Positions 1,756 to 16,614 of a stretch of 64,000 nucleotides of DNA are shown piece after piece. The DNA lies in the NCBI RefSeq assembly GCF_000203815.1, contig NW_004457734.1:875233-939232 (forward strand), in the 5' to 3' direction. This DNA comes from Cavenderia fasciculata (lineage: Eukaryota; Evosea; Eumycetozoa; Acytosteliales; Cavenderiaceae). The number at the start of each line of letters is the position of its first letter. Within the stretch, counting starts at the first letter, position 1. The translations under genes were made by a program, and so were the position numbers. The notes under the pieces were generated by a model that saw only the letters and a list, made by a program, of their open reading frames with translations, did no database searches and was not told the origin of the DNA.

Positions 1756-1762
1756 ATTAGGG

Positions 1763-3009
1763 TCTGTTCTCTCCTATCGGGAAGAGTAGTACTCAGAAGT
1801 TACAAAGTTTTATTAATTATACATTTTAATTGACCAGCAAGAAATAAAGATTATCTCGAGAAGAATTAAAGTTAATTTGTTCTGGGGGTTGTCCATGTCT
1901 ATGATACATGTTTTATGGACGTTGATCATGTATCTTATTGTATAGTGTCAAGCTTGTTGGATTGTTTTGGATTGTAGGTTGTTCTAAAAATAAATTGGTT
2001 AAAGATATCGCTTTTTTTTTTTTTTTTTTTTTCTCAGCACTATAGGCTGTAATATTGTGTTATATAATTATTCTATGTTATTATTATTATTTAGTAAATT
2101 ATTATATTATTAATATTATTATTGATAGATGAAGAGAGAGAAGAAGATGATGAAGGTGTTGAGGAGGATGAAAAGAATGAGGTTGAGGTGATCGATTATA
2201 GATGTAGTGTACGCAGAGTCTTGTACCTCTCTAAATGACTAGGTAGTGCGATCTTGTAGACAGTAGGATGGTTGTAGTTGGAGGAGAATCGAAGGATGAT
2301 AGTTTGTATTCGTTCTGCAATCGTATGTATTACTGATTCATCGGTTTGGTTCATTAGAGCCAAATGCCATCGATTACATAATTCTAACGTCTTGTCCCAT
2401 TTTACTTTTATAATATGTCGCATATCACTTATCAATCTAGCTCGCAGGTATTGTTCAGTGAATGGTTCATCTCTTTGGTGACGTAGATCATTACGTCGGA
2501 ACCATATTCGTTCTAGTGTTGCAGCGACCAAGTTTATAGTCATTGGAGTTTGTTTGAGGTTGACGCAAATATGGCACCAACTCCGAAATTACCATACTTG
2601 CGGTGAAACCTTAAGCCTTGGGTGCGTCCAAGACCGACTGCCGCTCTCAACTCTCGCGCCGATTTACTCCCCATTGTGGACACTCGTCTTTACGTGTTGC
2701 ATATTGTATTTGAGATGTCAGATGGCTTTCTATCGCGACGGCCCAGTAGGTCCTCCACTACCTTCCCGTTACTTGTTGCAGTCTGGCTACCCAATCTCCT
2801 GCTGAGAAGGGGAAACTAACCCGGTCATCCTTCCGTGGGGGTGTCCTGTCTCTAGATCCCTAGAGTCGGATGGTTTTTCTCCTCAATCCCCCCAATTGTG
2901 TCAAGTTAAACGTTGGCGCCAAAGGTAAAGTTCGAGGGCAGGATTCGAACCTATGACCTTTACGTTCCCGGGATCGCACACTCCCGACTCACTTGCCACG
3001 CCATGCCCT
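1763..3009 (-). mobile_element. Non-LTR-like element with tRNA-like head, left copy
   Basis: Read on the minus strand, it starts at 3009 with a tRNA-like head containing a perfect B box (GGTTCGAATCC, 2951-2941). A GC-richer body follows, then a remnant of a LINE-type reverse transcriptase C terminus (2543-2196), an AT-rich UTR, an internal A21 run (2032-2012), and a tail of about 250 bp. ATTAGGG occurs on both sides (1756-1762 and 3010-3016), a likely target duplication. The undisturbed sequence is visible in the inverted arm near 3884-3896. The element edge lies 55 bp upstream of tRNA-Asp (5' end 3065), the position taken by TRE5-type elements in Dictyostelium. Family assignment to a TRE5-like group is inference. 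Confidence 0.7.
2196..2543 (-). pseudogene. LINE reverse transcriptase C-terminal remnant
   Basis: A 115-codon frame begins TINLVAATLERIWFRRNDLR. The pattern of a hydrophobic helix followed by IWxxRNDLR is typical of the region after the reverse transcriptase core in non-LTR retrotransposons, where consensus forms read like 'IW..RND..F'. The open frame extends upstream of the ATG and contains a CHIC motif, consistent with the Cys-rich region upstream. Only this last part of the polyprotein is present, with no RT catalytic motifs. It sits inside the tRNA-headed element at 1763-3009 and is absent from the sister copy at 4961-5840. Confidence 0.55.
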
Positions 3010-3064
3010 ATTAGGGCGGCTGCCGGGGGGTCAAATATTTAATTTGGGAAATGGCACATATCAG

Positions 3065-3137
3065 TTCCCTTTTGGTCTAGTGGTGAGGATTTTCGCCTGT
3101 CACGCGAAAGGCCCGAGTTCAATTCTCGGAAGGGGAG
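3065..3137 (+). tRNA. tRNA-Asp (GTC)
   Basis: The full cloverleaf can be drawn. The acceptor TTCCCTT pairs with AAGGGGA. The anticodon arm TTCGC-CTGTCAC-GCGAA gives anticodon GTC. The T arm is CCGAG-TTCAATT-CTCGG and the discriminator is G, as expected for Asp. A T6 run follows at about 3143, suitable as a Pol III terminator. There is no intron. The D arm (TGGTCTAGTGG) looks more like eukaryotic tRNA-Glu than typical tRNA-Asp. Confidence 0.93.
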
Positions 3138-3189
3138 ATCCTTTTTTCTTTCTTTTTTTGCCCCCTGCCGCCGCAGCCGCTTGTTTTCA

Positions 3190-3387
3190 TGTTTATCGTG
3201 TTCTCCTCTTCATTTACTATCGATCCATCAAGGTTTCATTCATTTTCATCAAATCCTCGCCGCGAAATCAATAAAAATACATTTTGGTAAAAAAAAAAAG
3301 TTTTAACTCCTTTTTAATGTTTATCGTGTTATCCTCTTTATTTCTGATAGATTCATCAAAGTTTCATTCATTTTCATTAAATCCTAG
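3190..3387 (+). repeat. Direct repeat downstream of tRNA-Asp
   Basis: A unit of about 68 bp starting ATGTTTATCGTGTT and ending AAATCCT occurs at about 3190-3256 and again, diverged, at about 3318-3387. A third copy lies in reverse at about 3645-3713, next to the second tRNA-Asp gene. The unit belongs to the tRNA-Asp downstream flank that was inverted together with the tRNA gene. Confidence 0.65.
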
Positions 3388-3765
3388 GGGAAAAATAATC
3401 AATTCAGACCACCAACAATTTAGAGAGATATTTGATTAAAAGATGTAAAAGTAGACCTTGGAACCCTCCATTAAATGAAATTCCATTTTTTTGACCAAAA
3501 TTGGCAAAAGTGTTGGATATTAATTATTATATAGTTCTTGTTTAAATCGTTTAAAGCACCTTTATCTACATTCATCTTAGTTCTATTTTTTTTTACCATC
3601 GACATTTTTTTTTTTCGTAGTACTTGCTTGAATGATATCTCGGTGAAGATTTGATAAAAATGAATGAAACCTTAGTAAATCGATAGAGAATGAAGAGGAG
3701 AACACGATAAACATGAAAACAAGCGGCTGCGGCGGCAGGGGGCAAAAAAAGAAAGAAAAAAGGAT

Positions 3766-3838
3766 CTCCCCTTCCGAGAATTGAACTCGGGCCTTTCGCG
3801 TGACAGGCGAAAATCCTCACCACTAGACCAAAAGGGAA
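3766..3838 (-). tRNA. tRNA-Asp (GTC), inverted second copy
   Basis: The sequence is identical to the tRNA-Asp at 3065-3137 across the gene, in opposite orientation. It has the same acceptor TTCCCTT/AAGGGGA, anticodon GTC and G discriminator. A T6 run lies directly downstream on the minus strand. The two genes point at each other and are separated by about 630 bp. Confidence 0.93.
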
Positions 3839-3965
3839 CTGATATATGCCATTAACAAAAATTAAATATTTGACCCCCGGCCGCCCTAATTTTTTGGGTC
3901 TGAATCAGCTCAAATTGATTGACAAAAGTAAATTTCCAGATGATGGATCATTGAGATGTCAGAAA

Positions 3966-4825: not shown

Positions 4826-4899
4826 TATCAAGAATGGGAATCGAACCCATGACCCAAACCGTGTTAAGGTTTTGTGATAACCAACTACACCATCCTGAC
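4826..4899 (-). tRNA. tRNA-Val (AAC)
   Basis: Read on the minus strand, the acceptor GTCAGGA pairs with TCTTGAT, including two G-T pairs. The D arm is GTGTAGTTGGTTATCAC, the anticodon loop TTAACAC gives AAC, the T arm is ATGGG-TTCGATT-CCCAT and the discriminator is A. T-rich runs follow immediately downstream. The 5' end at 4899 lies about 60 bp from the head of the element at 4961-5840. Confidence 0.9.
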
Positions 4900-4960
4900 T
4901 TTAAGATGTCTGCAATGCCAAAACAACCGCCATCATCGCAAAATTTTGTAAAATAATACA

Positions 4961-5840
4961 GGGCATGGCGTGGCAAGTGAGTCGGGAGTGTGCTACCCCG
5001 GGAACGTAAAGGTCATAGGTTCGAATCCTGCCCTCGAACTTTACCTTTGGCGCCAACGTTTAACTTGACACAATTGGGGGGATTGAGGAGAAAAACCATC
5101 CGACTCTAGGGATCTAGAGACAGGACACCCCCACGGAAGGATGACCGGGTTAGTTTCCCCTTCTCAGCAGGAGATTGGGTAGCCAGACTGCAACAAGTAA
5201 CGGGAAGGTAGTGGAGGACCTACTGGGCCGTCGCGATAGAAAGCCATCTGACATCTCAAATACAATATGCAACACGTAAAGACGAGTGTCCACAATGGGG
5301 AGTAAATCGGCGCGAGAGTTGAGAGCGGCAGTCGGTCTTGGACGCACCCAAGGCTTAAGGTTTCACCGCAAGTATGGTACTAAAATTAGAAGAAGATGGG
5401 TGCCATATTTGCGTCAACACCTTCATCTTCTTCTATTCTCTCTTCATCTATCAATAATAATATTAATAATAATAATATTTTAATTTTATTAATAATAATG
5501 ATTACTTAGAATACTTATTTTTCCCACTATTACAGCTTAGAGTGCTGAGAAAAAAAAAAAAAAAAAAAAAGCGATATCTTTAACCAATTTATTTTTAGAA
5601 CAAGCAACAATCCAAAACAATCCAACATGCTTGACACTATACAATAAGATACATGATCAACGTCCATATAACATGTATCATAGACATGGACAACCCCCAG
5701 AACAAATTAACTTTAATTCTTCTCGAGATAATCTTTATTTCTTGCTGGTCAATTAAAATGTATAATTAATAAAACTTTGTAACTTCTGAGTACTACTCTT
5801 CCCGATAGGAGAGAACAGGAAAAGAATTACTTTAAAAAAA
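4961..5840 (+). mobile_element. tRNA-headed element, ORF-less right copy
   Basis: This is the same element as 1763-3009 in opposite orientation. It has the tRNA-like head (B box GGTTCGAATCC at 5018-5028), the same body, UTR, A21 run (5550-5570) and 250-bp tail. It ends with GAAAAGAATTACTTT and a short A run. It lacks about 350-400 bp that hold the LINE remnant in the left copy. Direct repeats close to AATTTTGTAAAATAATACA flank it (about 4942-4960 and 5841-5860), so it is an independent insertion. The head lies about 60 bp upstream of tRNA-Val. It resembles a SINE or non-autonomous derivative with a LINE-like 3' end. Confidence 0.7.
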
Positions 5841-5961
5841 ATTTTTGTAAAATAATACAATAATAAAATAATAACAATATAAGAATAATATAATAATAAT
5901 ATAATAATAATATAATAATAATAATATAAGAAACAATAACACCCAACAACGGGGCTACAAG

Positions 5962-6078
5962 CCCCTATACTAACAGAAACTCTAACTATTTTAATTAAAA
6001 TTAAAACAAATAAACCATAATTACTCTATTGTCCGACGACTAGAGTCCAGATTTATGAAAAAAAAAAAAAAAAAAAAA
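5962..6078 (+). mobile_element. Truncated retroelement 3' end with poly(A)
   Basis: The segment starting CCCCTATACTAACAGAAAC and ending in a long A run is nearly identical to 40242-40354, where clear target duplications bound it. The 5' boundary here is less certain because GGGGCTACAAGC precedes it. No coding sequence remains. It is read as a 5'-truncated non-LTR retroelement tail. Confidence 0.6.
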
Positions 6079-7865: not shown

Positions 7866-8319
7866 TTCTTTTAATAATAATAATAATATTTATATATCGA
7901 GTTGTAGAGTACTTTTTAATCATATTTATACTACTCTTGGTTGTCTTTAAAAATAAAGAGTAGTATAACAAATCATGATGTATGCAAGTTATGTTAAGTT
8001 GAGTTGGTTGATATTATTGGTTGCTTTGTCATCTATTCATTGGTGTGTCTGTTGGTGTGGTTATAAATAAAAAGCTGTGAGGTGACGATGCAATGAAACG
8101 TTTGTTATAAACGAAATTAATTAATGAAATTAAATTTTCATGAGACGAACCATCAGCTTTAAATATATTAAACTTAATATCCGATCTCAGGTTCTTCTTC
8201 ATTTTTGAATTTTTTTTTTTTTTATAAAACATGTGATGAATAAAGAATCGACGATAGTTTAGTTTGTTCAAACTATCTATCTCTTTTCTCTTCTCTTTAT
8301 TTATTTATATTCCAAAAAA
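7866..8319. other. Intergenic, shared upstream region of divergent genes
   Basis: This is the region between the NmrA-like gene (minus) and ankyrin gene A (plus), so it probably holds both promoters. A T11 run (about 8212-8223) and CTCTTTTCTCTTC just before the ATG at 8320 are typical of dictyostelid oligo(dT) promoter tracts. An 80-codon minus-strand frame is not supported. Confidence 0.5.
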
Positions 8320-10542
8320 ATGGATATTAAAATATTAATATTTAAAAATAGATATATTTTTAAAAAGATTATTAAAGAGAGAAATGAATTGTACAAGACA
8401 TGGTATTGGAAGGAATGTCTGTCGAGACCTTTACATTTGATGATTGCAAATGGAGAGTTTGATATGTTAAAATATTCATTGTCAAAGTACAAAGAACAAC
8501 ACTTTATACTATTGTCGTTTGCATTGCAGAGGTCACAGACGAGCTCGTCAGCAACACCAATACAACCAATCGATGCTGCTGCCTTTGCCAATCGTCTAGA
8601 CATTGCAATCTACTTGCACAACTACTTTTCACAAGAAGAAGAAGAGTCTGACAGGTTTACAAAAGCACTCATTCAAACATCCGACGCTATCAACTATGCT
8701 GCTAGAAACCTAAACTTTGAAATGGTCAAGTTTCTAACAAGTACAGTAAACCTAAATTGGAACAAACAAGCTATATTGTCTGCAATCAATCCAACCGTCA
8801 GTGATGGATTTGATGATCTAGTACTTGAAGAAAGAGGATTAGAAATTATAAAATATTTAATGAAACAAGGTAGATATTATACCTATCGAGATAATAGTAC
8901 AAGTCCAATTTACCAAGCCATTCATTGTGGAAAGAAAAAGATATTAGAGTATCTTGTTGGAGTGTGTATATTGGATGTGGCAGAGTTTGGGTCAGAGAGG
9001 TTACTTGGAACACCACCAATACAAAATCGAGCCTATCATTGTGCTCTAAGATCTGGTGATTTGGAGATGATTGATATCATGTGGGCATTCAAGAGTGCTC
9101 ATCATCCAGGTGACCAAAACAAATATCACGAGTCGTTATTGTCTGCCATTGCCTCCAACAAGATAGAGACCGTCAACCATGTCATTGCCAAGTTTCCATC
9201 GCCACCTCCTCACTTTAAACATTGTGCCTATATAGCGTCACCCTTTTTACCAAATGTTGCCCTCTCTGACCAAATGTTGGATTATATTGTCAATCATAAA
9301 GATATTCAATCTTTAATTCAACTATCAATCGATCCATACATTAAAGAAAATAGAATAGATACTATAACAAAATTTAAAAATCTATTTATGGTCTTTGGAC
9401 AAAATGTAACAGATTTGGTAGAACAAGGAAATATTAGAGTATTGAAACATTTGATCACAAATATTGGTATAAAGATGGGTGAAGGAGTATCTATAGTATC
9501 GGCCATTGAAGCTGGTAATCCAGAGATCCTTCAATTTGTTTATGAAAACAAAATTGCAAAATCTGATCCTTCAAGAGAAGATAAACAAATTAAACAAAGT
9601 AAAATTGTTGTAAAATCATTATGGTATCATTCAACTAGAAAACAACAAATAGATGGTAGTGGTAGATATTTGGAATGTTTAAAATTTGCATTAGATACAA
9701 AGATTGTAGAAGTTAGACATATATTAAATGCATTGGTCTATTGGAATGGAGATAAAGATTTATTCAATACGATTCCACAACTATTACCTTTATTTCAAAA
9801 ACTACATCCAAAAAAGTTGATTGGTATATTGGAGCATAAATTAAAAAATATAGAGTCACCAGTATTGACAAATGTACAATTATATTCAAACTCTTTTACA
9901 GAGAGACAACCATTTAGTCATGGTGTAAAGGAATTAATTGAAATATCGCCAACTGTGGAAATGTATTACAAAAAAGAGTGTGATCAACCATTGGGAGATT
10001 GGGCTTGTGAAAGTGACAATTTGGAGCTAGTACAATACCTAGTATCACTTGGTAATCCAAACCTTTTCACTAAAAAGGCTATAGATATATGTTTATATTA
10101 CAACAAGTCATGTGACGTGTTACAGTATCTATCTAGTAACGTATTCCCCATTCCACTGTCATTTGGTGATCAAATGTTGACGGCTCGATTCATTTCACTA
10201 GACTCGCTACAATTTTTATTTCCAGCAGTGGTAGACTGGTCAACCAAAACAACCATTGTCTCATCAGTCAACAGCCTTGAACATGCCTATAAATCTCAAC
10301 GATACCAAAACATCTACTACGCATTACAACAATTTAAAATTGTATCCCCCAAAGAGAAACCACTCAATCCAGAGGTTACCAACCGAGTTACATGTCCCGT
10401 TCGAGTTGGAGGTGATCTTGGGTATTGGCAAGCTTACCCAATCTATGTACTATTAATTCATAAAAAATTATTATCTTTTTATGATAATAGCCTTCTTTTT
10501 ATTAAAGAAAGAAGATCAAGTGGTCTTCTCTGGTATGCCTAA
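8320..10542 (+). CDS. Ankyrin-repeat protein A
   Basis: Single exon, 740 aa. It belongs to a dictyostelid-specific family of large, degenerate ankyrin proteins. The N terminus (IFKNRYIFKKIIKERNELY) is the family's usual helical start, followed by WKECLSRPLHLMIANGEFDML. Scattered repeats show the pattern A..NLNFEMVKFL, SGDLEMIDIMW and SDNLELVQYLVSLGNP. No other domain is visible. It is about the same length as the paralogue at 14404-16614, and the two align from the first residue. The function is unknown; such repeats normally mediate protein binding. The start at 8320 is the first ATG and matches the paralogue start. Confidence 0.85.
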   Translation: MDIKILIFKNRYIFKKIIKERNELYKTWYWKECLSRPLHLMIANGEFDMLKYSLSKYKEQHFILLSFALQRSQTSSSATPIQPIDAAAFANRLDIAIYLHNYFSQEEEESDRFTKALIQTSDAINYAARNLNFEMVKFLTSTVNLNWNKQAILSAINPTVSDGFDDLVLEERGLEIIKYLMKQGRYYTYRDNSTSPIYQAIHCGKKKILEYLVGVCILDVAEFGSERLLGTPPIQNRAYHCALRSGDLEMIDIMWAFKSAHHPGDQNKYHESLLSAIASNKIETVNHVIAKFPSPPPHFKHCAYIASPFLPNVALSDQMLDYIVNHKDIQSLIQLSIDPYIKENRIDTITKFKNLFMVFGQNVTDLVEQGNIRVLKHLITNIGIKMGEGVSIVSAIEAGNPEILQFVYENKIAKSDPSREDKQIKQSKIVVKSLWYHSTRKQQIDGSGRYLECLKFALDTKIVEVRHILNALVYWNGDKDLFNTIPQLLPLFQKLHPKKLIGILEHKLKNIESPVLTNVQLYSNSFTERQPFSHGVKELIEISPTVEMYYKKECDQPLGDWACESDNLELVQYLVSLGNPNLFTKKAIDICLYYNKSCDVLQYLSSNVFPIPLSFGDQMLTARFISLDSLQFLFPAVVDWSTKTTIVSSVNSLEHAYKSQRYQNIYYALQQFKIVSPKEKPLNPEVTNRVTCPVRVGGDLGYWQAYPIYVLLIHKKLLSFYDNSLLFIKERRSSGLLWYA

Positions 10543-14230: not shown

Positions 14231-14403
14231 TCTTTTTGGACAAAATCAAAAGTCAATCAAATACTAATACATTCAAGCCCAAGAGAAAAATAAAAATAGA
14301 TATTTTTTTTAAAAGTCTTTTTCTTTTTATTTTCTGATTTTTCTTTTCAAAAAGCACACACCCAGTACTTTTAAAAGTGATTAATATTCTATTCTTTTTA
14401 ATC

Positions 14404-16614
14404 ATGGAATTTATAGAAATAACTTTAAAGAATCATTATTTATTACAAAAGATATTAAAATGTAGAAAGGAATTGGTGAATAGTTTGGAATGGCAAGAAA
14501 GTGTGTCTAGACCATTGCATGTATTAATTGCAGAGCAAAATGTAGAGATGCTGAGATACTCTTTGCACAAGTTTGCTTATCAACACTTTGCAGTACTCTC
14601 ACATGCAATTAAAAATCAATCATCCAATTTATACTCTTCAAACATTCCCATACGTCCCATTGATACGGCTGCCTATGTCAATCGTCTAGATATTCTAAAG
14701 TATCTACATAAAAGATTAGACAAGGTAAAAGAAGAATTCTTTGGTGCACATGTTGGTGATAAATACAATATCTTAATATCACAAGATGCTATTAGTTGGG
14801 CTGCCAGACACTCAAATCTAGAGATGGTTCAATACCTAGCACAAGAATTAAAATGGTCAACTATAACCGACTCAATCATTATTGATGCTATCAATGGTCC
14901 TTCTGGTGGTCTTGATATTATCAAATATCTTAAATCTACAACAACTACCAATTGGGCATTTAAAGATGATGCACTTGGTCCAATTTATAGTGCCATTTCA
15001 AGAGGTGACATTGGAATAGATTCACTTTGCTATTTGGTTCAAGTGTGTACGTTGGAAACTGTTAAAAAGAGTCAAGACGACACACACATTGTCGGCTCTA
15101 GTTTGGTTGCAAATAGAGCATTCCATCATGCCATCAGATCAAGTAATCATAGAGCCATCGAAATTATTTATAACCGAGGTGATGGTATATACAATGAAGA
15201 AGGTGATGAATATAGTTATTGGGAGGCAATCATATCAGCAATCACTTCAAATAATTTAGAAACTATTCATTTTATAATTGATTTATTTAAATTAAAACAT
15301 GAATCAGCTCTTCCTCCAACCAAAAATATTAGAACACCAACACCATTCCTTCAAGACATTGTATTATCAAAAAATATATTAGAATATATACAAAACTTAT
15401 CATCAACCTCTTCAAATTTGATAAGTTTTAAATTTAATTTAAATGTATATATTAATAATGGTAGATTAGATTTGGTAGAATATTTATTAAATAATAATAT
15501 GGCGTATAAAGTATTTGATCCAACAGAGTTGGTTGAAAAAGGAGATTTAACGACAATGCTTCATTTGACAAACAAAGTTAAACTACCAACCTCTCAAAAA
15601 GTATCGATTCTGTCGGCCATTGAAACCGGTAATCTTAAAATGATGCAACACGTTTACAAGAATCTAATGAGAATCGATCCATCTCGGGAAGACAAAGAAA
15701 CCAAACAAAATAAATTGGCTCTCAAATTACTTTGGTATAATACAACTAGAAAACAACAACAAGAAAAAGATGGTAGTGGTAGTGATGGTAGTGGAGGATA
15801 TTTGGAATGTTTAAAATTTGCAGTTGATAATCAAATTATAGATTTAAATAATATAGCAAATTCTTTGGTCTATTGGAATGGAGATAAAGAGTTGATTGAA
15901 AAGATACCAACACTAGTTAAACATTTAAAAAAGAATCAACCAAAAAGAATGGTATCGGTTTTACAATTCAAACTTGAAAACAATGAATCACCAACATTGA
16001 CCTACAACCAACTGTTTAGTAATACTTTTACCAATAGACCATCGTTTTATCATGGAACAAAAGAGATTATCGAAATATTCAAGTCGTATTTTGAATCATC
16101 GATTCAATGTTGTCATCCATTGGGTGATTGGGCATGTCACAATGAAGATTTGGATTTGATCAAATACTTGGTATCAATTGGCAACCCTGCACTTTTCACT
16201 AAAAAAGCAATCGACAATTGTCTACGATACCACAAATCACCAGAGATTTTACAATACCTCATGGACAATGTATTTCAAAATGTAGAACCAACTTTGGAAC
16301 AATTATGTATATCAAGAAATATGTCTATTCAATCATTATTATTAAATTCATATCCTTGGCTGTCAAGTACTTTAGAATCTGCTAGTGTGGCAACCTTTCA
16401 AACTCTATTTCAACAATCGTACATTTCAAAACAATACTGTAATATTTTTCATTTATTGGATCATCCAAATGGAAAAAAAGTGCACTACTCTTTACCACAA
16501 TATACTTTCATGTCATCGGATCCTCTTGATCCTTCTATTAATAGTTTTTGGAAAACTTGTTATCCAATTATTATTTTAATTAGATATTTTAATATTACTC
16601 CAAAATTATGGTAA
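14404..16614 (+). CDS. Ankyrin-repeat protein B
   Basis: Single exon of 736 aa from the ATG at 14404. An in-frame ATG at 14377 would add nine residues, but 14404 (MEFIEITLKNHYLLQKILK) aligns with the start of paralogue A, so it is preferred. The family N-terminal helix is followed by WQESVSRPLHVLIAEQNVEML and degenerate ankyrin units (HSNLEMVQYLAQE, NGRLDLVEYLLNNN, NEDLDLIKYLVSIGNP). Compared with A it has an extra Gly/Ser-Asp stretch (KDGSGSDGSGGYLECL). No catalytic domain is present. It closes the duplication cluster that begins at 8320. Confidence 0.85.
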   Translation: MEFIEITLKNHYLLQKILKCRKELVNSLEWQESVSRPLHVLIAEQNVEMLRYSLHKFAYQHFAVLSHAIKNQSSNLYSSNIPIRPIDTAAYVNRLDILKYLHKRLDKVKEEFFGAHVGDKYNILISQDAISWAARHSNLEMVQYLAQELKWSTITDSIIIDAINGPSGGLDIIKYLKSTTTTNWAFKDDALGPIYSAISRGDIGIDSLCYLVQVCTLETVKKSQDDTHIVGSSLVANRAFHHAIRSSNHRAIEIIYNRGDGIYNEEGDEYSYWEAIISAITSNNLETIHFIIDLFKLKHESALPPTKNIRTPTPFLQDIVLSKNILEYIQNLSSTSSNLISFKFNLNVYINNGRLDLVEYLLNNNMAYKVFDPTELVEKGDLTTMLHLTNKVKLPTSQKVSILSAIETGNLKMMQHVYKNLMRIDPSREDKETKQNKLALKLLWYNTTRKQQQEKDGSGSDGSGGYLECLKFAVDNQIIDLNNIANSLVYWNGDKELIEKIPTLVKHLKKNQPKRMVSVLQFKLENNESPTLTYNQLFSNTFTNRPSFYHGTKEIIEIFKSYFESSIQCCHPLGDWACHNEDLDLIKYLVSIGNPALFTKKAIDNCLRYHKSPEILQYLMDNVFQNVEPTLEQLCISRNMSIQSLLLNSYPWLSSTLESASVATFQTLFQQSYISKQYCNIFHLLDHPNGKKVHYSLPQYTFMSSDPLDPSINSFWKTCYPIIILIRYFNITPKLW

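Follow-up and report, generated by a model that had tools for sequence, protein, structure and literature searches.

A probable SINE-like retroelement family carried to tRNA genes by a TRE5-like LINE in Cavenderia fasciculata

The Cavenderia fasciculata genome contains a family of short, SINE-like, non-autonomous retroelements that a resident TRE5-like LINE probably mobilises in trans. The copies begin with a non-coding head, about 448 bp in length, whose 5' end is constant and which carries a B box, and in 29 of the 29 places found the head is directly followed by LINE 3' sequence, in all cases from one TRE5-like LINE. Two copies are located in the window, the 64,000-nucleotide stretch analysed here (contig NW_004457734.1, positions 875,233 to 939,232, forward strand). 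The assembly containing the window comprises 31.0 Mb in 21 contigs, and all genome-wide copy counts are lower bounds. The features of the first copy (L001), in window coordinates, are as follows.

1756..1762: target-site duplication of copy 1, 3' side, ATTAGGG, 7 bp
1763..3009, minus strand: short element copy 1, type I (head, LINE ORF2 remnant and 3' UTR)
1764..2010, minus strand: 3' tail, common to LINE copies
2012..2032, minus strand: internal A21 run within the LINE-derived 3' sequence
2196..2561, minus strand: LINE ORF2 C-terminal remnant, 121 codons plus stop
2559..2566, minus strand: head/LINE junction, GCG-TC-AAC
2564..2602, minus strand: hairpin ending the head, stem CGCAAGTATGG/CCATATTTGCG, z -4.2
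2941..2951, minus strand: exact B box GGTTCGAATCC
2984..2998, minus strand: weak A-box-like stretch TGGCAAGTGAGTCGG (by-eye comparison, two mismatches to the A-box consensus)
3010..3016: target-site duplication of copy 1, 5' side, ATTAGGG on the plus strand
3065..3138, plus strand: tRNA-Asp gene targeted by copy 1, gap 55 bp (ARAGORN)
3885..3929: empty site matching that of copy 1, adjacent to the inverted tRNA-Asp duplicate

The preliminary description, made from the letters of the window, had proposed a single unit combining a tRNA-like head with a perfect B box, a piece of a LINE reverse transcriptase (RT), an A21 run and a further 3' tail. All of the named parts are present on the minus strand, bounded by the 7-bp duplication, with the B box, the A21 run and the tail as described; the RT remnant is also present but is 121 codons plus stop in length, not 115. 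The start sequence GGGCATGGCG lies at the 3009 side, and the final portion of the usual 3' end (GGAAAAGAATTACTTT plus oligo A) is missing. Copy 1 points away from the tRNA-Asp gene and starts 55 bp upstream of it. This gene and its flanks form an inverted duplication (arms 3018-3275 and 3628-3885, 258 nt, 90%), and the flanks of copy 1, when joined, correspond to the unfilled site next to the other arm.

The second copy is inserted on the plus strand and lacks the RT piece.

4826..4899, minus strand: tRNA-Val gene targeted by copy 2, gap 60 bp (ARAGORN)
4944..4960: target-site duplication of copy 2, 17 bp, 5' side
4961..5842, plus strand: short element copy 2, type II (head joined to LINE 3' UTR), its 3' end uncertain by 1 base
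5018..5028, plus strand: B box of copy 2
5367..5413, plus strand: hairpin closing the head, with type II loop, z -6.5
5550..5570, plus strand: A21 run of copy 2
5818..5841, plus strand: conserved 3' end GGAAAAGAATTACTTT plus oligo A
5843..5859: target-site duplication of copy 2, 17 bp, 3' side

The heads of the two copies differ by 2 substitutions in about 420 bp, and the GC content of the copy 2 head is 53%, against 32% for the window. Like copy 1, copy 2 is directed away from its tRNA gene, starting 60 bp upstream of it. Further along, a repeated stretch CACCCAACAACGGGGCTACAAGCCCCTATACTAACAGA occupies positions 5940-6078 and runs into an A-rich run near 6058-6078; similar letters occur in L039 and in the 3' flanks of L027 and L043, near tRNA genes, and this stretch is perhaps another tRNA-associated element. 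The window also encodes two ankyrin-repeat ORFs (8263-10542 and 14338-16614; 759 and 758 aa), possibly paralogues. Ten ORFs near or flanking the element, scanned with Pfam, contained no family diagnostic of dictyostelids.

The genome search with the head returned 31 matching stretches representing at least 29 distinct places, two stretches being pieces of L022 and L027. Five kinds of join between head and LINE sequence were distinguished: type I, with the RT remnant (five copies: L001, L006, L007, L008 and L028); type II, a join in the 3' UTR (20 of the 29 places, L020 being put here by hand); type III, at a later point in ORF2 (L010 and L018); and, both named by hand, type IIb (L013) and type IV, just before the A run (L029). 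The long RT piece is a property of one of several joins and no defining mark of the family. ORF2 sequence is limited to the five type I copies, that of L028 being cut short, and, in shorter form, to the two type III copies. No complete RT or endonuclease was found in the short elements at the 29 places.

The copies have several of the properties expected of SINEs: they are non-coding and non-autonomous, carry the 3' end of a partner LINE and show target-site duplications together with an A-rich 3' end. The 18 copies complete at the 5' end start with GGGCATGGCG in all but one case, and complete copies are about 0.84-1.27 kb long. Oligo A was measured in 23 of 29 copies. An exact flank match of at least 11 nt was present in 19 of 29 copies, as compared with 3 of 300 random flank pairs, and in 11 of these 19 the duplication is separated from the head by 1-4 additional nucleotides; extra nucleotides at this position are also described for TRE5-A insertions in the available part of PMC5391098. 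A tRNA gene lies on the opposite strand, 55-70 bp from the 5' end, in 24 of 29 copies, the exceptions being L002 (145), L016 (12), L026 (680), L027 (157) and L029 (1276). The preliminary description would have been refuted had head and tail never occurred together elsewhere; both are joined in 29 places. An unrelated tRNA pseudogene placed by chance beside a LINE fragment at this locus would account for a head whose B box alone is clearly tRNA-like; but head and LINE tail accompany each other at all 29 places, in most cases with the same ends and with target-site duplications, which makes such a coincidence hardly credible.

Sensitive searches did not enlarge the family: no distant relatives of the head beyond the known copies were detected in the genome DNA at E up to 10, none by a model search of the window, and no match was found in the plasmid collection.

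The exact B-box pattern GGTTCGANTCC occurs three times in the window, where 0.02 matches are expected; the matches other than copy 1 are copy 2 and the tRNA-Val gene. Genome-wide, the B box is present in 20 copies; among the copies that extend to this point on the 5' side, L022 has a deletion and L027 a break here. The tRNA-like character attributed to the head is confirmed as regards the B box, but likeness beyond it was not recognised. ARAGORN called no tRNA in the head, Rfam gave no tRNA match for copy 2 at E up to 5 and 10, and these programs and alignment revealed no likeness to tRNA, 7SL or 5S RNA outside the B box. The head as a recognisable tRNA was rejected, the best alignment score being 16 against a shuffle mean of 11.25 and maximum of 18 (33 tRNA genes, 200 shuffles). 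A tRNA origin of the head is weakly suggested. The first 76 nt fold no better than shuffles (z +0.57) and the 420-nt head is less stable than shuffles (z +1.8), so that an overall RNA structure was rejected and the only strong element is the terminal hairpin.

The position of the B box relative to the 5' end is compatible with an internal Pol III promoter, the A box being weak. The head may supply an internal promoter of the Pol III type, a reading with less support than that of template switching. The type II elements contain T4-T5 tracts at positions 518, 524, 558 and 632, and the type I elements at 835 and 1019; such tracts could stop Pol III and count against transcription by this polymerase. 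In this genome the first downstream T tract is T4 or T5 in 31 of 52 tRNA genes. Head position 86 separates L001-L008, L010 and L018 from L009, L011-L017, L019, L020 and L022: the T4 tract CTTTT right after the B-box region reads CCTTT in one of the two sets, so that a potential premature Pol III terminator would be lost.

The head was also considered as the start of a coding ORF1. This was rejected, since 14 of 15 distinct substitutions are nonsynonymous and the small ORF is unconserved as a protein. A protein search with the head ORF gave 45 matches, which are only pieces of the short family and of its LINE part, one match near 615,400 on C7 being left aside.

The partner LINE is represented by many longer copies that match the 3' part of the short elements and have no head. 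Two of them, L036 and L038, each have a frame that stays open for 621 codons, to the limit of the sequence examined, and match the RVT_1 profile (E=6.7e-12 and E=6.6e-14, respectively), zf-RVT remaining under its cut-off; PDB matches of the LINE RT are to R2 and LINE-1 ORF2. In 13 of 25 LINE loci examined the LINE begins upstream of a tRNA gene at a distance of 49-66 bp, in 3 the distance is greater, and in the remaining 9 a tRNA gene is absent upstream inside the stretch examined. This tRNA-gene habit, in which LINE copies behave like the short elements, points to the short elements as non-autonomous riders of the LINE. As the 3' end is shared, the LINE enzyme would copy the short RNA as its own and take it to tRNA genes.

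The preliminary description proposed to test whether a complete LINE shares the 3' part of the element; the sharing is evident in the LINE copies, but a complete LINE was not found. The four longest copies have open frames ending 702, 687, 631 and 819 codons upstream, and these differing ends suggest 5' truncation. L038 (C7), one of the 9 loci with no tRNA gene in range, proved after extension by 391 bases through L091 to be truncated as well, about 55 bp from a tRNA-Glu gene, and has the duplication GGCATGTTATGA. Among nine PF03372 matches none lies beside a LINE copy, and PF14529 gave no matches, the LINE 5' ends examined being truncated. Since no full-length LINE was found in the 31.0-Mb, 21-contig assembly, the LINE is a presumed source of the enzyme and statements about its 5' end are limited. 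Contig C15 begins inside a LINE copy (C15:1-241), and a longer LINE may thus be lost in an assembly gap. Distant RT frames with 28-51% identity to the LINE and long open frames are present at C21:2271411-2272610, C4:1111145-1112617, C16:206574-207065 and C17:2552-3682; these probably represent other non-LTR families.

The tail was found in 49 matches. At the 30 loci examined among them it belongs either to the LINE, in some cases truncated within the UTR, or to head-bearing elements, and no other head was seen on it. Truncation inside the UTR is found in L087 and in one tandem unit (L067/L086).

These results bear on an alternative in which the head is the 5' UTR and promoter, equivalent to the A-module, of an autonomous TRE5-like LINE, and the short elements are internal deletions transcribed by Pol II, as TRE5-A reportedly is, going by the title of a paper. 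Since the searches yielded no complete LINE, the head may yet prove to be the 5' end of the LINE itself, and both the T tracts in the type II body, which argue against Pol III, and the absence of a second kind of head among 30 of the 49 tail matches are in keeping with this. In Dictyostelium discoideum the A-module promoter drives transcription of TRE5-A (available part of PMC4559204), and TRE5-A.2 is a non-autonomous derivative mobilised in trans (PMC5391098 and PMC5633606, in the parts available). However, the head does not run into LINE sequence lying 5' of the type I join at any of the 29 places, and searches with the short head gave known copies only. ORF1 is not retained and the head ORF is unconstrained. 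In eight junctions the head breaks within a few nucleotides at the hairpin base, where repeated internal deletions should scatter, and a B box at a SINE-like position is improbable by chance. We consider this origin of the head unlikely, and the reading of the short elements as SINE-like riders with a head of their own is followed below.

The 3' tails were compared as haplotypes (42 rows, 9 informative columns), and most tails of short copies have haplotypes in common with LINE copies. In the RT piece, L008 is identical to LINE copies L036-L039 (lineage A) and L006 to L045-L047 (lineage B), while L007 has one difference from B and L001 five from the nearest LINE. The identity of L006 and L008 to LINE lineages indicates recent joining to the head. 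Compared codon by codon with L038 (lineage A), L008 has no differences, L006 seven and L007 eight, all synonymous, whereas L001 has six, of which four are synonymous and two nonsynonymous. Among nine LINE copies, nonsynonymous differences from L038 are absent from L036, L037, L039 and L035, number one in L049 and 4-7 in L040, L041, L043 and L044, so the all-synonymous pattern applies to lineage B only. A synonymous-only difference between A and B indicates that the sequence evolved as a gene in the LINE.

In some pairs of copies, nearly identical heads are combined with 3' halves of different LINE lineages. L007 and L008 differ at 0 of 448 head positions and 35 of 818 in the 3' half (Fisher p 2e-7), L009 and L020 at 1/427 and 21/416 (p 4e-6), L002 and L005 at 0/455 and 22/409 (p 5e-8), and L006 and L001 at 2/447 and 32/597 (p 2e-6). 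Two pairs without a mosaic, L010/L018 (5/440, 9/519) and L011/L012 (0/455, 2/415), are not significant, and L002 and L004 are identical throughout, with no difference in head or tail. The seven pairs were picked after the RT-piece comparison had been viewed, and the p-values are descriptive. Past the junction, all 38 diagnostic columns show the A state in L008 and the B state in L007; at all 25 such columns compared in the other pair, L009 has the A state and L020 the B state. Lineages A and B are separated by 39 columns, and two earlier columns, alike in type II copies, were read as head. Lineage is patchy in L003, L005 and L006, and L001 resembles L040; in comparison with 15 LINE copies, L001 has at least 16 substitutions and L005 at least 19.

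Exchange between genomic copies, by gene conversion or unequal exchange, could also produce mosaic 3' halves. The copies are near-identical, several stand in tandem at the same tRNA gene, and the patchy lineage of L003, L005 and L006 fits conversion. Against it, L007, L008, L009 and L020 belong to one lineage from the junction to the 3' end, unpatched, and lie at different tRNA genes (Ala, Glu, Val and Ile); three of the four are flanked by duplications of 14-17 bp, which in L007 consist of a simple repeat, and L009 has only a 7-nt match. Exchange between copies is therefore an improbable source of the mosaics. Identical heads with 3' halves of different LINE lineages point instead to template switching.

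The idea of a SINE ancestor, or half-SINE generated from a LINE, put forward in the preliminary description holds in that the element is of non-LTR type and its B-box head is joined to a LINE 3' part including coding sequence, but not as regards a single fossil ancestor: with 0-1 differences from present LINEs, the RT pieces of L006, L007 and L008 look like recent re-joinings. L028, in which the head is more diverged and the LINE part at the joint is closest to L041, suggests that an RT-bearing form existed early.

The joins themselves occupy one position of the head. Eight junctions, covering types I, II, III, IIb and IV, were read. In each, a single hairpin (CGCAAGTATGG...CCATATTTGCG, with one base changed in L018) closes the head, which stops at the hairpin base, and T or TC comes next. 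Hairpin energies of types I, II and IV are -16.7, -21.2 and -19.0 kcal/mol (z -4.2, -6.5 and -6.0). The loop varies by type, and the stem of L029 has a wobble-to-Watson-Crick change. On the LINE side, CTCCTC occurs three times in 1916 nt of lineage A, and all three occurrences are join sites (types I, II and III); this motif was noticed post hoc, and its TC is common to the head, so the agreement is partly given. The joins of type IIb and of L020 fall in pyrimidine tracts other than CTCCTC, and that of type IV in none. In L020 the lineage B sequence begins immediately past the joint, which occupies a position homologous to the joint of L002.

Splicing was rejected as the origin of the joins: no AG precedes them, and GCG-T or GCG-TC closes the constant part. 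Pairing between the head loop and a LINE arm ranks in the top 0.8% of LINE positions for type II and at 6-10% for type I; it was rejected as a general cause, types III, IIb and IV not being significant. In the type II hairpin region (window 5367-5440), the loop includes TAGAAGAAGATG, whose reverse complement, CATCTTCTTCTA, stands in the LINE just past the joint.

In the template-switching mechanism proposed here, the LINE RT would begin on the 3' end of LINE RNA by target-primed reverse transcription and could then switch to the short-element RNA at the hairpin base, via 1-5 nt of shared sequence (T, TC, TCA or TCAAC). Such a switch would create and renew chimeras, finishing with the head. It would account for the pairing of identical heads with several LINE tails, for the clustering of joins at a single head position and for the microhomology there. 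More tentatively, as a possibility that falls somewhat short of even chances, the terminal hairpin may act as a recombination hinge: the enzyme would leave the LINE RNA at pyrimidine-rich CTCC-TC or homologous sites and resume at the hairpin base, one promoter head would time and again receive the 3' end of the LINE lineage active at the moment, and the SINE would track its partner by tail swapping, not by mutation, inheriting tRNA-gene targeting.

How SINEs arise from a partner LINE and stay matched to it has mostly been inferred from old, diverged copies. In this small genome, identical heads with several LINE lineages, linked at several joints, have been caught before divergence, and the place of the switch is readable from single nucleotides. 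If template switching is true, the mosaic copies would show how parasites stay matched to their helpers. The combination of a SINE-like element with the tRNA-gene targeting of a LINE also makes the question of Pol III or Pol II transcription testable in culturable amoebae.

Among known systems, the closest in behaviour is TRE5-A.2 of Dictyostelium discoideum, which is likewise moved in trans by a TRE5-type LINE and inserts about 50 bp upstream of tRNA genes in the opposite orientation (PMC5391098, PMC5633606 and PMC5911963, in the parts available). TRE5 insertion is placed 44-54 bp upstream of tRNA genes, in opposite orientation, in the available part of PMC5911963. According to the accessible text of PMC5391098, TRE5-A.2 lacks ORF2, and a marked version built on it keeps ORF1. 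In the present short elements, by contrast, ORF1 is absent, at most the last 121 ORF2 codons are present, and the B-box head is unseen on the LINE copies found; instead of ORF1 kept and ORF2 lost, there is no ORF1-sized frame in the head. The TRE5-like LINEs of dictyostelids, including those reported from D. fasciculatum, correspond to the partner and not to the short element: likened by description, they agree with the partner LINE in having an RT domain, in where and in which direction they insert at tRNA genes, in being 5' truncated and in carrying an oligo-A tail.

tRNA-headed SINEs combine a B-box head, an unrelated body, the 3' end of a partner LINE, an oligo-A end and target-site duplications. 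The present elements carry all of these features. They differ in that the head matches no particular tRNA and ends in a hairpin bearing several joins, the elements are long (about 0.84-1.27 kb), the tail may include ORF2 codons, and insertion is targeted to tRNA genes. The RIME/ingi and NARTc/L1Tc pairs of trypanosomes are also alike in that a short non-autonomous element shares sequence with its LINE. RIME has both ends in common with ingi, whereas in the present elements only the 3' part is common to the LINE copies found. No SINE or SINE-like element in a dictyostelid is named in the open-licence literature searched. Riders of TRE5 elements, such as TRE5-A.2, and SINEs with LINE tails are thus each known already, while their combination with repeated re-joining at a hairpin is new as far as the searches go.
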